NCBI GenBank assembly: GCA_012270875.1
Contig: JAAXHI010000368.1
Span: 1,717-39,420, forward strand
DNA length: 37,704 nucleotides
Reading direction: 5' to 3'
Source of the DNA: Candidatus Poribacteria bacterium
GTDB taxonomy: Bacteria; Poribacteria; WGA-4E; WGA-3G
In this document: one piece after another, positions 8,474 to 29,349 of the stretch
Numbering within the stretch: position 1 is the stretch's first letter
How the letters are laid out: each line of letters begins with the position of its first letter
Notes under the pieces: generated by a model
Told to the model about the DNA's origin: nothing
The model's database searches: none
What the model saw: the letters and a program-made list of their open reading frames with translations, nothing else
Position numbers and translations under genes: made by a program

Positions 8474-8539
8474 ATTCGCGGATTCATTAGGAAATATTTG
8501 GACCTTAAAGCATTAGGACATTGAAAGGCTATGAAGGGA

Positions 8540-8792
8540 CATACGTAAGCTGTTGAGACCTCGCAAGCAGAGAGACCGCGTCATCGGCTGAAAGCGCGGT
8601 TTTGGGAGCAACAGCCGAATTTCATCCCAGAGCTACTGGAAATTGGAAAATGGAGTGGGTAGATTTGCAGGAGTGACCTCCGAGTCGCGATTATCTACCA
8701 AGCGGGGTGGTACCGCGGAAGTCGATGCCTGTCGCTTTCGTCCCCAGAAGGAAATCAACCTTCATGGGAGAAAGTGGCTGGCATTTTTTTTT
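8540..8792 (+). promoter_or_regulatory. T-box riboswitch/leader controlling pheS(T), UUC (Phe) specifier
   Basis: T-box core AGCGGGGTGGTACCGCGG at 8701-8718; Stem I arms GCTGTTG (8549-8555)/CAACAGC (8609-8615) and ACCGCG (8575-8580)/CGCGGT (8595-8600); TTC at 8621-8623 in a GAATTTCATCCC specifier-loop context; terminator plus T-run follows. Confidence 0.9.
8725..8792 (+). terminator. intrinsic terminator of the pheS T-box leader
   Basis: ATGCC...GCTTTCGTCCC / GGGAGAAAGTGGCTGGCAT long stem with inner GAAGG/CCTTC, followed by a 9-T run (8784-8792). Confidence 0.85.
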
Positions 8793-8961: not shown

Positions 8962-9978
8962 ATGAAAGCAGAATTACAAGCGATTCAAGCAGAAGCACTT
9001 GAGGCGTTAAAATCGGTGGAAACATCAGACGCGCTTGAATCACTTCGGATTACGTATTTTGGACGCAAAGGAAAACTGACAGATGTCATGAAGGGCATGG
9101 GCAAACTTTCCAAAGAGGAGCGTCCAGAGATCGGAAAACTCGCCAACGAAGTGCGTGCAGCACTAACGCAAGCGTTTGAAGCAGCAACACAAGCACTCCA
9201 CAGTCAACAGCAGGAACAGCAGCTCGAGGCAGAATCTGTGGACATCACACTTCCCGGAAGGAAACCTGCTTATGGGAAAGCACATCCCGTGATGCAAACC
9301 TTAGAACGGATTGAAGCGATATTCGGTCAAATGGGATTTGAAGTGGTGACTGGACCGGATGTTGAAACCGAGTACTACAACTTCGATGCGTTGAATACAC
9401 CTGCTGATCATCCCGCTCGCGATCTACATGATACCTTTTATCTAACAGACGGACACCTCTTGCGTACGCATACATCCCCTGTTCAAATCCGCGCGATGGA
9501 GAATCAGAAACCACCCATCCGCATCATCGTACCCGGAAAATGCTATCGTGTGGATTACGACATCTCACACACGCCGATGTTCCATCACGTCGAGGGCTTG
9601 CTCGTGGATAAGCACGTCACTTTTAGTGAACTCAAAGGGATTTTGACTTCCTTTGCCCAACAGATGTTCGGTGACCAGACCCAGATGCGTTTCCGTCCCC
9701 ACTTCTTCCCCTTCACAGAACCGAGTGCGGAGGTGGATATCACCTGCGCCGTTTGTCAAGGAAAGGGATGTCGAAGTTGTGGCGGCACCGGATGGGTTGA
9801 AATCTTGGGTGCTGGTGCCGTTGACCCAGCGGTATTTGAAGCGGTGAACTACGATCCGAATGAAGTTACCGGTTTCGCTTTCGGGATGGGTGTGGAACGG
9901 ATCGCGAACCTTCAGTTTCGCATTCCAGATATCCGTACCCTCTATGAGAACGATCTCCGTTTTTTACGTCAGTTTTAA
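8962..9978 (+). CDS. pheS: phenylalanyl-tRNA synthetase alpha subunit
   Basis: LRTHTSPVQIRAM, CYRVDYDISHTPMFHHVEGLLVD, RFRPHFFPFTEPSAEVDI, GFAFGMGVERIANL. Confidence 0.97.
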   Translation: MKAELQAIQAEALEALKSVETSDALESLRITYFGRKGKLTDVMKGMGKLSKEERPEIGKLANEVRAALTQAFEAATQALHSQQQEQQLEAESVDITLPGRKPAYGKAHPVMQTLERIEAIFGQMGFEVVTGPDVETEYYNFDALNTPADHPARDLHDTFYLTDGHLLRTHTSPVQIRAMENQKPPIRIIVPGKCYRVDYDISHTPMFHHVEGLLVDKHVTFSELKGILTSFAQQMFGDQTQMRFRPHFFPFTEPSAEVDITCAVCQGKGCRSCGGTGWVEILGAGAVDPAVFEAVNYDPNEVTGFAFGMGVERIANLQFRIPDIRTLYENDLRFLRQF

Positions 9979-23419: not shown

Positions 23420-25051
23420 TTATTCGGTTTCATTGGATAGCAGTTTCAGACTGTTTTCACCCGGTACATATAGATACGCGTTTCTACCCGTGAAGTATTG
23501 CGCGTACACATTTTCCCAATCGCTGTTTGTCAGTTTCCAGCGTGGTGCGGGACCGAGTTTAAAATAGACAATATCCGCCTCTTGGAGACTCTTAAACGGA
23601 TAATCGCCTATCGGCGCGCCTCGGTGTCGAGACACGAAAATAACAGCATTGTGAATATCCTGCTCTGCTACCATCGGTGGTAGCTTCTGGTAGACATGCC
23701 CCCAATTCTGGTATCTTTCCCCAATACGGACATAACTCCATACAACGTTGACGCTGAGCAACAGCAGACATACCCCAACGACAACAGCAAGCACGGGTCT
23801 CTGGAGCGGTTTGAATCGCTCATAAAGGATTAACATCCCACGTGCTACCAGTGGAATGAAACCGAGGAATGTCAATTCGGTGTAATAACGCGCATTGACA
23901 GGTGTGTATCCCCACGTTGAACCTTCAAAGTAGAAAAAAGCGTAAAGCAACAAGTTAGCTACGAGTAGTGCAAGACAGAACACATCGTATCTGTTCCGCG
24001 AAGGGTGGAAGAAAGGGATAAAGAACAGGCACCAAGGCAGAATTAACGGCACAAAGGCGATAATCCATGTCAAAGACAATTCGGCATCTCTCAACAAATG
24101 GTGGTGATAACTCCCCCACCCGAGCGCGTTGAAACTGATACAAGGGAGAATGTGTCGCCACGTCCTTTCGATTGACCATGCCGGTGTAAAAATAAACGCT
24201 TGCTCGATATTAGGTTCGTAGCCTTCCGTCCGAGCACCGAACCCAATTTTATCATAAGGCTGTGCGACCGTGTGCGTGAACATGAACGGATCTTCTGTGA
24301 AATGCGCGTTCCACGCCGTACACACACCAAGCATCACAATGAATGGAATAAAGAAGAACCCGAAGCGTTTTAGCGTAGCGAACAGAGTTTGTCGGTGCTG
24401 AAATTGCGTGAGCAGATAGTAGATCGTCAATCCTGCGCCAACAACGCCAAAGACAACTGCTGAGAGCGGACGCGTATTGAACGCATATCCCAACGCAAAT
24501 CCTGAGAGCAAAGGATAGCCAATCCGTGCGAGAAGAGGCGCGTCGCTCTCACACTTCAAGGTCCTAAGGAGTGCAAATAGATAGAGCGAAAGATAGAAAC
24601 GGCTGACCGGTTCACTGAACCATGTTGATCCCATACCGAGCGTTGCTGGCGAAATGAGTCCAAGCACCGCCGCGAGGAGCGCGATGCCGTTATGGATGTC
24701 CCCATATATCTCTTTCACAAAAAGGTAGAGAAATAGGAGTGCTCCACCTGTTGCAAGCGCAGGAATCAGCCACGGTGCGTTGATAAATACGCCGAACATC
24801 AGCATCAAGGCGTTGCCGAACGGATACTTTGAATACCATTTACCGTTCAGAACATTGATATGCGGTGAAGAAGAGAATCCGTGTTCTGGGGGCGCGGGGA
24901 ATGAGAGTTTGCCCGCCGCGAACAACTTTGCTTGGAATAGATACGAGACAGTGTCGGGTTCAAAGTAGGTAAACTGGAAATAGATACCGCATAGGAGTAC
25001 CGATAGCAGGACACCGAGTATTGCAATGATGAAAATAGGTTTAATTCTCAT
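23420..25051 (-). CDS. multi-pass membrane glycosyltransferase-like protein (GT39/ArnT/PMT-like)
   Basis: Early FEPDTVSYLFQAKLFAAGKLSFPAPP motif, many TM segments, YPFGNALMLMFG. Confidence 0.7.
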   Translation of the reverse strand: MRIKPIFIIAILGVLLSVLLCGIYFQFTYFEPDTVSYLFQAKLFAAGKLSFPAPPEHGFSSSPHINVLNGKWYSKYPFGNALMLMFGVFINAPWLIPALATGGALLFLYLFVKEIYGDIHNGIALLAAVLGLISPATLGMGSTWFSEPVSRFYLSLYLFALLRTLKCESDAPLLARIGYPLLSGFALGYAFNTRPLSAVVFGVVGAGLTIYYLLTQFQHRQTLFATLKRFGFFFIPFIVMLGVCTAWNAHFTEDPFMFTHTVAQPYDKIGFGARTEGYEPNIEQAFIFTPAWSIERTWRHILPCISFNALGWGSYHHHLLRDAELSLTWIIAFVPLILPWCLFFIPFFHPSRNRYDVFCLALLVANLLLYAFFYFEGSTWGYTPVNARYYTELTFLGFIPLVARGMLILYERFKPLQRPVLAVVVGVCLLLLSVNVVWSYVRIGERYQNWGHVYQKLPPMVAEQDIHNAVIFVSRHRGAPIGDYPFKSLQEADIVYFKLGPAPRWKLTNSDWENVYAQYFTGRNAYLYVPGENSLKLLSNETE

Positions 25052-25079
25052 GACATTATTTGGTAGCCTTTTAAAAAAT

Positions 25080-25108
25080 TTGACATTCGCCGCTCAATAC
25101 GGTATAAT
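25080..25108 (+). promoter_or_regulatory. consensus sigma70 promoter for the his leader: TTGACA-17 bp-TATAAT
   Basis: Exact consensus hexamers at 25080-25085 and 25103-25108 with a 17-bp spacer. Confidence 0.85.
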
Positions 25109-25207
25109 ATCATTAAGTCCGGATTAAAGTCACTAACTTTTTTGTAGCAAGTCTGCCTCTTTCTCAATAACAGGCAGGAATTCTGACATTACAAATAACA
25201 CTGAAAA

Positions 25208-25261
25208 ATGCTTAACGTTATTACATTTAACATCCATCACCATCATTCGGTCCACTTCTAA
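25208..25261 (+). CDS. histidine-rich leader peptide MLNVITFNIHHHHSVHF
   Basis: ATG CTT AAC GTT ATT ACA TTT AAC ATC CAT CAC CAT CAT TCG GTC CAC TTC TAA: four consecutive His codons plus a fifth; located between promoter and terminator upstream of hisZ-hisG. No obvious SD. Confidence 0.75.
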   Translation: MLNVITFNIHHHHSVHF

Positions 25262-25263
25262 GT

Positions 25264-25406
25264 AGAGCGGATGAGGGAATATGAATAGATATCTTTGATA
25301 CGAAGCAAGTTTAACTTGTTTGGACCCTGGTAAACGAGCCGCTCTCTTCCGTGCTATGTTGTTAGCACGCGCGAGAAAAGCGCAAAAGTTTACTGGGTTT
25401 TTTTTT
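25264..25406 (+). terminator. his attenuator: alternative pairing plus intrinsic terminator
   Basis: AGAGCGG (25264-25270) complementary to CCGCTCT (25339-25345); outer terminator stem CCCTGGTAAAC (25325-25335)/GTTTACTGGG (25388-25397), inner GTGCTA/TAGCAC; 9-T run at 25398-25406. Confidence 0.75.
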
Positions 25407-25587
25407 GACTTTTTTATTTATAAGGTTTTTGCTCCGTTTTGTCCGCCTTCCCGGTAACGGGTGGAATCCGTGTCAAAAACGGGTTTCTGTCGAGATCATG
25501 GTAGGATTGAGGATTTTAAAGCTTTTTGAAATTGGCGTTTTCATAAACAATAGTTGGAGGATGTACCCTTGGCGTACATGGAAAAAA

Positions 25588-27024
25588 ATGAGCAAGTTTG
25601 ATAAACCTGCCGGGACGAATGACTTTCTACCCGAGCAGATGGTCCAGCGAAATTTCGTTGAAAATATCGTTCGTGAAACCTTTGAAACTTACGGATACGC
25701 ACAGGTTCAGACCCCGCTGTTTGAATCTTTCGCGCTGTTATCCGCACAATCCGGTGAAGAGATTCGCCACAAGATGTTCACATTTGTCGGTTCGGATAGG
25801 GTGGACTATGCGCTGAGGCCTGAGTTGACCGCACCTGTCTGCCGACTTGTTGCCAATGGACAACTGAAACACCTCCCATATCCCTATAAACTCTACTACA
25901 TTGGGGAGTGTGTCCGACAGGAACCCATCACCGACGGCACGGAAGTAAAACGAGAGTTCCGACAAGCCGGTGTTGAACTCGTTGGACCGGCTTCCGCGCA
26001 CGCGGACGCTGAAATTATTGCGATGCCGATCCGAATTCTTGAGAAACTTAACATCTCACAAACAAAGTTAAGAATCGGCAATACAGGCATTTTCCGTGAG
26101 ATTTTCAAACAGGTCGCGTTGGACACCAAAGACCACGGTGAAATTATATGGGACATTGATTACCTGGTCCGGCTCCGCAATGAAAGTCAACTTTGGGATC
26201 TGGAAACGCTTCAAGACACACTCAATATGCTGCGTCGGTCGCAAGGCTCTGACTACCAAGGCACTCACAAAATAGAGGCTTCCGAAATCCAAGAACTGAC
26301 CGAAAATACCGCGTCTACTTATACCGAGAAACTCCCTATGATTGCCGAGGAAACCTATAAATCAAGGTGGCAACGCTATTTCAATATCTCCGAAGAGGCC
26401 GCGCAGCGTTGTATCGATGTCTCAAAGATTTGTGGTGATAAATACACTGTGATGACAACGTGGGAGACGCACCTCAGTGATACTGCGCAGGCTGCACGCC
26501 AGGAGTTACTCGCACTCTGCGACTGCTTGGAGAACTACAATATTACAGACTTTGAAATCAATTTGGGCATTACGCGGGGATTTGATTTCTATACAGGCAC
26601 AGTTTTTCAGATCGAATTGTCTGAGAAACGTCTACCACTTTGTGGCGGTGGGAGATATGACGGACTCATTGGTTCCTTTGGGGGAGCATCTACACCCGGT
26701 GCTGGGTTTGCGTTCCAATTCGATGCACTTGTAGAGGCGTTCGCTGACACAGGAGCAGTGACTGGCAACGGAAGAAAAGACTACTTCATCGCAGTAGAGA
26801 CCCCAGAACAAACTTCGGAAGCACACCGACTTGCAGAGACGCTGCGAAGAGCAGGTAAGAACGTCGAAGTGGATTTAATGGAACGGGATTTCCAAGCACA
26901 ACGGGATTACGCTAACCAATTGAACTACGATTACCTACTCCGTTTAGCTAAAGATGATTCAATGTACCTGATCCACCTCAGAACTGGCGACACACAAAAA
27001 ACCGCTGTTACCGATCTCCCTTAG
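25588..27024 (+). CDS. hisZ: HisRS-like protein, likely ATP phosphoribosyltransferase regulatory subunit HisZ
   Basis: KPAGTNDFLPEQMVQRNFVENIVRETFETYGY, ALRPELTAPVCRLVA, LPLCGGGRYDGLIGSFGG; immediately upstream of hisG, with a separate canonical hisS nearby. Start uncertain (25561 or 25588). Confidence 0.75.
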   Translation: MSKFDKPAGTNDFLPEQMVQRNFVENIVRETFETYGYAQVQTPLFESFALLSAQSGEEIRHKMFTFVGSDRVDYALRPELTAPVCRLVANGQLKHLPYPYKLYYIGECVRQEPITDGTEVKREFRQAGVELVGPASAHADAEIIAMPIRILEKLNISQTKLRIGNTGIFREIFKQVALDTKDHGEIIWDIDYLVRLRNESQLWDLETLQDTLNMLRRSQGSDYQGTHKIEASEIQELTENTASTYTEKLPMIAEETYKSRWQRYFNISEEAAQRCIDVSKICGDKYTVMTTWETHLSDTAQAARQELLALCDCLENYNITDFEINLGITRGFDFYTGTVFQIELSEKRLPLCGGGRYDGLIGSFGGASTPGAGFAFQFDALVEAFADTGAVTGNGRKDYFIAVETPEQTSEAHRLAETLRRAGKNVEVDLMERDFQAQRDYANQLNYDYLLRLAKDDSMYLIHLRTGDTQKTAVTDLP

Positions 27025-27093: not shown

Positions 27094-27873
27094 ATGAAAA
27101 CGGAATCACAACGGACGCTGAATCTACTTTTACCGAAAGGCAGTCTACAAGGAGACACCCTTGAAATGTTCCAGCGTGCCGGTTATGAACTCAACGGTTA
27201 TACTGCAACCGACCGATCCTATCGTGCCACTTTTCGAGACGATAGCGAATTTCAAATCAAGATTTCACGTCCACAAGAGATACCGGTCTACGTCGGTATG
27301 GACGACTTCTATGATTTAGGGATCACCGGTCAAGATTGGGTTGAAGAGACCGACTCAGATGTTGAAGAAATTTTGCCTTTGGAATATGGGCATATTGATA
27401 TCATCCTCGCTGTTCGCGAAGAACGAGAAGACATCAATACATTTGAGGATTTGATGAACCTCGCTGATGGAGACATTCTCATCTCTACCGAATATTTGAA
27501 TATCGCCGAAAAATACATCCTTGAAAAGACAGAAAATAAGGTCGCACCAGCGATTTTAACACCGTGGAAGCGGCTTAATACCCCCGGTTCTTACCAATCA
27601 CCAATCAGACTCATGTTGTCTTTTGGAGCGACCGAAGGGAAACCGCCAGAGGAAGCCGATGCGATCATCGACAATTCAACGGCATCACGGCGTACAATCA
27701 AGGCAAATTCACTCAAGGAGATTGAACGCTTACGCGAATCCGAATCTACTCTCATCGCGAATCCGAAGGCACTCAAAGACGCTTGGAAGCGTGAAAAAAT
27801 TGAAGAATTCAAGCAGACGCTTCAGAAAGGTTTGCGGAGACGGCGGAGTCAAGCACTTCCTGGACACATTTAA
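27094..27873 (+). CDS. hisG: ATP phosphoribosyltransferase catalytic subunit
   Basis: LNLLLPKGSLQGDTLEMFQRAGYEL, RPQEIPVYVGMDDFYDLGITGQDWVEE, GATEGKPPEEADAIIDNSTASRRTIKAN. Confidence 0.92.
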   Translation: MKTESQRTLNLLLPKGSLQGDTLEMFQRAGYELNGYTATDRSYRATFRDDSEFQIKISRPQEIPVYVGMDDFYDLGITGQDWVEETDSDVEEILPLEYGHIDIILAVREEREDINTFEDLMNLADGDILISTEYLNIAEKYILEKTENKVAPAILTPWKRLNTPGSYQSPIRLMLSFGATEGKPPEEADAIIDNSTASRRTIKANSLKEIERLRESESTLIANPKALKDAWKREKIEEFKQTLQKGLRRRRSQALPGHI

Positions 27874-28002: not shown

Positions 28003-29349
28003 ATGGCAACCCCATTCATTAAACCGCGCGTCCCGCGCGGGATGCGAGACATCTTACCCGAACAGATGATTCGTAGGCAGTACGTCATAGATGTGATTCG
28101 TGGCGTGTTTGAAGAATTCGGTTTTGAACCCTTACAGACACCTGCGCTCGAATTATCCGAAGTACTCACAGGCAAATACGGACCGGATGCAGAGAAACTT
28201 ATTTATCAGGCAGGACACGTCGGTGGAAAAGAGGACATCTCCCTCCGATATGATCTTTCAGTACCGCTCTGTCGGCTTGTTGCTATGTATCCACAACTGC
28301 CGAAACCGTTTAAGCGATACCAGATTGATCCAGTCTGGCGAGCGGAACGTCCACAAAAGGGACGCTATCGCCAATTCTTCCAGTGCGATGCGGATACAGT
28401 GGGCAGCGAGAGTATGCTTGCTGATGCTGAAAATGTTACGCTCGTCTATCAAGTGCTAACGCGTCTCGGTTTCGAGCAATTCGAGATTAACATCAACGAC
28501 AGGAAACTCATCACCGGCATCGGACAATTTGCTGGTGTACCTACCGAGCAGCTTGGTGGACTCTACCGTTCTATCGATAAACTGGATAAGATTGGGTTAG
28601 CAGGGGTCAGATCAGAATTAGCCGAAAACCAGATACCGGAGCCTGTTATTGAGAAACTACTCGCACTACTTGAGGTCGAAGGTGATGCAGCAACAGTTCT
28701 GAATTCGCTCAGTGAACAACTCGGCGACTCTGAAGCCGCACGAGAGGGTATCTCGGAATTGGAGGCACTGATCGGTTATCTCACGACCCTCGACGTGCCT
28801 GATGAATTCTATAAGGTGAATGTCTCTATGGTGCGTGGCTTAGAATATTACACAGGTCCGATTTACGAGACGGTTGTTGAGGAACCGAAAATCGGGAGTA
28901 TCACCGGTGGAGGTCGATATGATAAACTCATCGGAAATTTCAGCAAACAGGGATACCCGGCAACAGGCACCAGTTTCGGTATTGAGCGGATTATTGATGT
29001 GATGGAAGAATTTGATATGTTCCCATCCGCAGTCGGAAAGACAGTAACACAGGTGTTAGTCACTGTTTTCGATGCTGACCTCGCGCCGGAATCCTTAAAA
29101 GTAGCGTCCCTTTTGCGCCAGAATGGTATCCGTGCTGAGGTCTACAGCCGCCCAGCGCGCATGAGTGCTCAGATAAAATATGCGGATACCAAAGGTATTC
29201 CGTATGCCGTCATCCTCGGTTCTGATGAAGTAGAGGCAGGTACGGTCGCAGTCCGAGACCTCTCGAATAGAGAACAGCACATTGTCCCGCGAGATGAAGT
29301 TGCTGAACGTATCCAAAAGTGGACAAGCGTGCAAAGATTGTCCCATTGA
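28003..29349 (+). CDS. hisS: histidyl-tRNA synthetase
   Basis: PRGMRDILPEQM, SLRYDLSVPLCRLVA, RAERPQKGRYRQFFQCDADTVG, GLEYYTGPIYE, GGGRYDKLIGNF. Confidence 0.95.
   Translation: MATPFIKPRVPRGMRDILPEQMIRRQYVIDVIRGVFEEFGFEPLQTPALELSEVLTGKYGPDAEKLIYQAGHVGGKEDISLRYDLSVPLCRLVAMYPQLPKPFKRYQIDPVWRAERPQKGRYRQFFQCDADTVGSESMLADAENVTLVYQVLTRLGFEQFEININDRKLITGIGQFAGVPTEQLGGLYRSIDKLDKIGLAGVRSELAENQIPEPVIEKLLALLEVEGDAATVLNSLSEQLGDSEAAREGISELEALIGYLTTLDVPDEFYKVNVSMVRGLEYYTGPIYETVVEEPKIGSITGGGRYDKLIGNFSKQGYPATGTSFGIERIIDVMEEFDMFPSAVGKTVTQVLVTVFDADLAPESLKVASLLRQNGIRAEVYSRPARMSAQIKYADTKGIPYAVILGSDEVEAGTVAVRDLSNREQHIVPRDEVAERIQKWTSVQRLSH

Follow-up and report, generated by a model that had tools for sequence, protein, structure and literature searches.

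Analysis of the window (the whole 37,704-nucleotide stretch of DNA presented here) indicated that the region upstream of hisZ most probably carries a ribosome-mediated transcription attenuator of hisZ-hisG-hisS that senses charged tRNA-His; we put the probability of this reading at about 0.92. Ribosome-mediated his attenuation had been claimed from a sequence-only reading of this DNA, and the claim is supported both by the sequence and by its comparison with relatives, in which the in-frame coding of a His leader, its His run, the position of its stop codon and three mutually exclusive helices were conserved, with covariation in the protector and the terminator. The element has the features that define this class of attenuators: a leader ORF with His codons, whose translation is predicted; an antiterminator and a terminator that exclude each other, followed by a T-run; an antiterminator strand lying just past the stop codon and guarded by a helix (1:2) that contains the regulatory codons; and an operon whose products (hisZ, hisG and hisS) act on the same amino acid. 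The features are as follows.

25080..25108, plus strand: sigma-70-type promoter TTGACA-17-TATAAT (TTGACA 25080-25085, TATAAT 25103-25108), 12/12 consensus
25208..25261, plus strand: leader peptide ORF MLNVITFNIHHHHSVHF, 17 codons, ATG at 25208 and stop codon TAA at 25259-25261
25235-25246, plus strand: regulatory His run CAT CAC CAT CAT, inside the leader ORF
25240..25276, plus strand: protector hairpin (1:2) of the consensus fold, 25240-25249 (His codons and the next Ser codon) with 25268-25276
25264..25270, plus strand: antiterminator 5' strand AGAGCGG (segment 2), 2 nt 3' of the leader stop
25303..25321, plus strand: hairpin AAGCAAGT-TTA-ACTTGTTT, small and conserved, in the loop of the antiterminator (helix 3, paired in 100% of cells)
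25325..25406, plus strand: intrinsic terminator, CCCTGGTAAAC (25325-25335) with GTTTACTGGG (25388-25397), closing a branched stem, then T9 (25398-25406)
25339..25345, plus strand: antiterminator 3' strand CCGCTCT (segment 3), within the terminator stem-loop
25588..27024, plus strand: hisZ, HisS-like regulatory subunit of ATP phosphoribosyltransferase, best PDB match 3od1 HisZ
27094..27873, plus strand: hisG, short form (TIGR00070, 117 bits; PF01634 only, without HisG_C)
28003..29349, plus strand: hisS, histidyl-tRNA synthetase (TIGR00442, 391 bits, above cut-off; PF03129 anticodon domain)

The exact consensus promoter claimed earlier was present, with 12/12 matching positions, compared with a mean of 1.3 promoter sites at ≥9/12 in shuffled versions of the region. 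The hexamers TTGACA/T and TATAAT were kept in nearly all relatives whose contigs reached the promoter, with a spacer of 17 nt and, in a few of them, 18 nt.

The His-rich leader ORF, also proposed from sequence, was found at 25208-25261 and proved to be conserved in relatives. Its frame was open and began with ATG in all 54 homologous loci, each of which encoded HHH or HHHH. Within the seven codons 5' of the His run, stop codons were absent from frame 0 and occurred in the +1 and +2 frames of 11 and 28 of the 54 loci; on this comparison, such frame-specific stop avoidance is a coding constraint. In the same genus, the ATG was located exactly 27 nt 5' of the His run and HHHH was kept in 31/31 loci with sequence reaching that far; the following codons (S-V-H-F) showed few changes, the N-terminal codons varied freely, and two loci carried an in-frame 3-nt deletion (codon GTC). 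In the other genera of the family, all 20 loci kept HHH, followed by two residues and then H or Y near the end of peptides that were otherwise strongly divergent (e.g., MQTLFFTPHHHPVHA, MLTLFSSTHHHSIHS, and MKRILYIHHHSVHS), and the stop codon was placed immediately 5' of GGGCGG/GAGCGG. The distance from the leader stop to GAGCGG was 6 nt in most loci and 2–5 nt elsewhere, with the sole exception of locus L020 (G033:C158). There the stop TGA was changed to TGG, which gave a peptide nine residues longer that extended past the antiterminator strand; the end of the contig was nearby.

The earlier caveat that the leader ATG lacks a clear Shine-Dalgarno (SD) sequence holds for the whole set, since no SD-like motif (AGGA, GGAG or GAGG) was detected 5' of the ATG in any of the 54 homologous leaders, and the leader is thus predicted to be translated without one. 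In three loci (L088, L089, and L090), a short ORF, ATGTTTAATGTTGTAATTGAC, was located upstream, and its stop overlapped the leader ATG (TGATG/TAATG); this overlap possibly reflects translational coupling that replaces the SD.

Comparison of the hisZ upstream region in related genomes, proposed earlier as a check, revealed covariation in both the protector and the terminator. Loss of the His run or of the stems was not the pattern observed: the run, the ATG, the stop and the three mutually exclusive helices (protector, antiterminator, and terminator) were kept in 50+ genomes. The protector helix is an addition to the sequence-only reading, which had not described it. In other genera it was formed by CATCATTC/GAATGATG together with AATCC and GGATT, with 96.1% of cells paired compared with at most 51% in slid alignments; two pairs were changed on both sides, and 0/500 shuffles matched either the paired percentage or the covariation score. 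The covariation involved a synonymous change of a His codon from CAT to CAC with A to G on the opposite strand, and U-A was replaced by C-G in two loci. The near-invariance of CAT CAC CAT CAT at the DNA level within the genus is explained by this pairing.

The complementarity of AGAGCGG to CCGCTCT, as had been noticed, comprised 7 bp (25264-25270 with 25339-25345), and the antiterminator was extended by AGGG (25274-25277) with CCCT (25325-25328). In the genus, the helix was nearly invariant, with 97.9% of cells paired versus at most 62% in slid alignments; in other genera, GAGCGG/GGGCGG with CCGCTC was paired in 99.2% of cells, and a second antiterminator helix, between the protector strand and a downstream copy of CATCAT, in 90.5%. 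The antiterminator helices were almost invariant and therefore show complementarity, not covariation. A single mismatch in segment 3 was observed in L081. The terminator stem with nine Ts before hisZ was present as described; in other genera 98% of its cells were paired, nine additional pair types occurred, and at two pairs both sides had changed. These counts, like the other helix pair counts given here, come from related sequences and represent non-independent events. The base of the stem and the T-run were nearly invariant. A simple terminator scan did not detect this terminator, owing to the branched structure within its stem.

These data also bear on the possibility that an RNA-binding protein or a small ligand, such as histidine itself, switches between the terminator and the antiterminator and that the His-rich ORF is incidental. 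In its favor, the RNA is very conserved in the genus and the leader ORF has no SD; however, the protector and antiterminator helices account for the RNA conservation, whereas the frame-specific absence of stops, the kept ATG and the fixed stop in 54 loci, the in-frame deletions, and the synonymous changes in the His run that are coupled to pairing all argue against it. We therefore regard this explanation as very unlikely.

The RNA folding that had been suggested as a check was carried out on nascent chains, that is, on RNA ending 1–30 nt past segment 3, with the His codons either masked, as by a ribosome, or unmasked. Masking switched the predicted structure: the mean antiterminator probability rose from 0.07–0.12 (unmasked) to 0.65–1.0 (masked) in 31 loci of the genus and from 0.09–0.24 to 0.70–0.94 in 20 loci of other genera. 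At equilibrium, folding of the whole leader usually favored the terminator over the antiterminator even when the His codons were masked; according to these models, the decision between termination and antitermination must therefore be kinetic. A kinetic decision is usual for attenuators.

The positions of these parts suggest how the attenuator may operate. RNA polymerase would start just past 25108, and a ribosome would translate the 17-codon leader. If His-tRNA is plentiful, this ribosome would reach the stop at 25259, where its footprint (approximately +15 from the P site) would cover AGAGCGG; CCGCTCT would then remain free, the terminator (25325-25397) would form, and transcription would end in the T-run. 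If His-tRNA is scarce, it would instead stall on the four His codons and break the protector. AGAGCGG:CCGCTCT and AGGG:CCCT pairing could then take place; this would exclude the terminator and allow transcription of hisZ-hisG-hisS. In an untranslated leader, the protector would hide AGAGCGG, and transcription would terminate. The location of the stop 2–6 nt before GAGCGG implies that a ribosome at the stop would cover segment 2, whereas a ribosome stalled at the His codons would free it. Stalling, termination, the response to histidine and the co-transcription of hisS are all predictions from sequence comparison.

T-box leaders are present in the same genomes. In the window, the pheS leader (8522-8748; pheS 8962-9978) contained a T-box (motif GGGGTGGTACCGCGG; T-run terminator near 8785); its RF00230 score (71.8 bits, E 1.2e-15) was below the family cut-off of 93, and for this reason it was missed by the default scan. 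A second T-box of this genome (L095 531-797; G000:C418:5230-5496; 97.6 bits) was located directly before ilvB-ilvN-ilvC, and T-boxes were found in 56 of the 60 Poribacteria relatives. The use of T-boxes by the phylum, for pheS in the window and ilvBNC elsewhere, together with a TGGT near the his terminator (25328-25331), could suggest direct binding of uncharged tRNA-His by the his leader RNA, acting itself as a T-box riboswitch. However, the region 25000-25600 gave no RF00230 match at E values up to 10, in contrast to the pheS leader, and there is no stem I with a specifier; the whole region from promoter to ATG is only ~30 nt long in L011 and L020. In addition, TGGT would require discriminator A, whereas tRNA-His usually has C73, and a conserved reading frame would be unexpected in a T-box. 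T-box identity was thus rejected, and we assign it a negligible probability. Equally improbable is a leader that acts on translation or merely terminates background transcription without sensing histidine, since the stem and T9 lie ~180 nt before the hisZ start, which is therefore not sequestered, and since the upstream neighbor gene (25051-23420, minus strand) is divergent and can neither need nor be served by the terminator.

The attenuator is proposed to act on histidine synthesis at its first committed step and on the histidyl-tRNA synthetase (HisRS). The short-form HisG/HisZ pair named in the sequence-only reading was recovered, as hisG lacked HisG_C and the best PDB match of hisZ was 3od1. 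No PF03129 match to an anticodon-binding domain was found in the hisZ product, and its scores for TIGR00442 and TIGR00443 were both below cut-off, the HisS-model score being at least equal to the HisZ-model score. Control of hisS had been considered possible, and its membership in the operon is supported by hisG-hisS gaps of 15–34 nt in most relatives. Directly 5' of the hisZ ATG (25540-25590), GGAGG preceded a small hairpin (ATGTACCC..GGCGTACAT); several relatives had a similar hairpin, and others a plain AAGGA-type SD instead.

A search of Poribacteria genomes with a covariance model made from the genus detected the element in 35 of 38 genus members and in 21/21 other genomes of the family, compared with 0/26 genomes of other Poribacteria families. 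Each genome with the element had one copy, except for one MAG with a second copy at a contig end, and wherever the contig continued, the next genes were hisZ, then hisG, then hisS. Most genomes of the genus had HisZ with at least 78% identity. An exact core pattern gave 24 matching stretches in ~85,000 species genomes, all of them titled Poribacteria, in line with the earlier impression that the lineage does not look proteobacterial. Genomes of the other families mostly had HisG (24/26), with full-length open frames of ~290–410 aa (mostly ~300); HisG_C was present in all five of these proteins tested, and neither a short ORF with a His run nor a T-box motif was found near their hisG. By comparison, the 12 tested members of the family all had HisG without HisG_C plus a second HisS-like protein. 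Judging by these genomes, the attenuator occurs where short HisG and HisZ have taken the place of long-form HisG. We tentatively propose, at somewhat below even odds, a joint reading in which one family replaced long HisG with hisZ-hisG(short)-hisS under its own attenuator, which has an SD-less leader start and probably represents his attenuation that arose independently of that in Proteobacteria and Firmicutes, with feedback on HisRS as well as on pathway entry, T-boxes being what these cells otherwise use for such tasks.

Searches of Rfam at gathering and permissive thresholds returned nothing relevant for the his leader. The His_leader family RF00514 had no match in the window and none above the gathering cut-off in the 60 relatives, compared with 1 of 14 control genomes (a list headed by E. 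coli); the best sub-threshold match among the relatives (G059, 33 bits) was rejected as false, since it looks to be a coding gene's His-rich end (GroEL-like by eye). The Poribacteria leader shares with enterobacterial hisL the predicted stalling at consecutive His codons, a stop before the antiterminator strand and three exclusive helices. It differs in the absence of an RF00514 match, in having 3–4 plus 1 His codons, whereas E. coli hisL has seven in a row, and in its predicted targets, hisZ-hisG-hisS, whereas hisL controls the whole pathway. The E. coli pheM-pheST attenuator is similar in that a leader peptide regulates the synthetase for its own amino acid; in Poribacteria, the amino acid is histidine, and the synthetase gene takes third place in a biosynthetic operon. 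T-box leaders likewise sense tRNA charging and control termination, and the same genomes use them for pheS and ilvBNC, but they bind tRNA directly instead of relying on ribosome stalling, and their features are absent from the his leader.

The earlier statement that his attenuation is known mainly from Proteobacteria is outdated, as His leader peptides before hisZ or the his operon have been proposed in Firmicutes. For hisZ, such upstream peptides were proposed in bacilli (Naville and Gautheret 2010, PMC2965389) as well as in the B. cereus group and C. difficile (PMC4833913, 2016), and His leader attenuators were likewise proposed in three Firmicutes lineages, where RF00514 is absent too (PMC9413887, 2022). 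Likened by description, the Bacillus and Clostridium difficile hisZ/hisS* leaders have the same His-rich peptide and alternative terminator/antiterminator upstream of hisZ, and the Poribacteria leader differs in its phylum and in an operon hisZ-hisG-hisS with HisRS downstream. In the open-access literature, we found no reports of this switch in Poribacteria and no papers linking Poribacteria with hisG or T-box riboswitches. On the sequence evidence, the Poribacteria his leader is a known type of switch in a new phylum, and the presence of HisRS in the controlled operon is its notable feature.

The covariance model can annotate these leaders, which are overlooked by Rfam and by ordinary ORF lists. 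With strong comparative support, the element would extend ribosome-mediated amino acid attenuation to an uncultured candidate phylum, in which the leader appears exactly where HisG changed form. The same genomes would offer a natural case for studying the choice between leader peptide and T-box, since hisZGS has a leader peptide there and pheS and ilvBNC have T-boxes.
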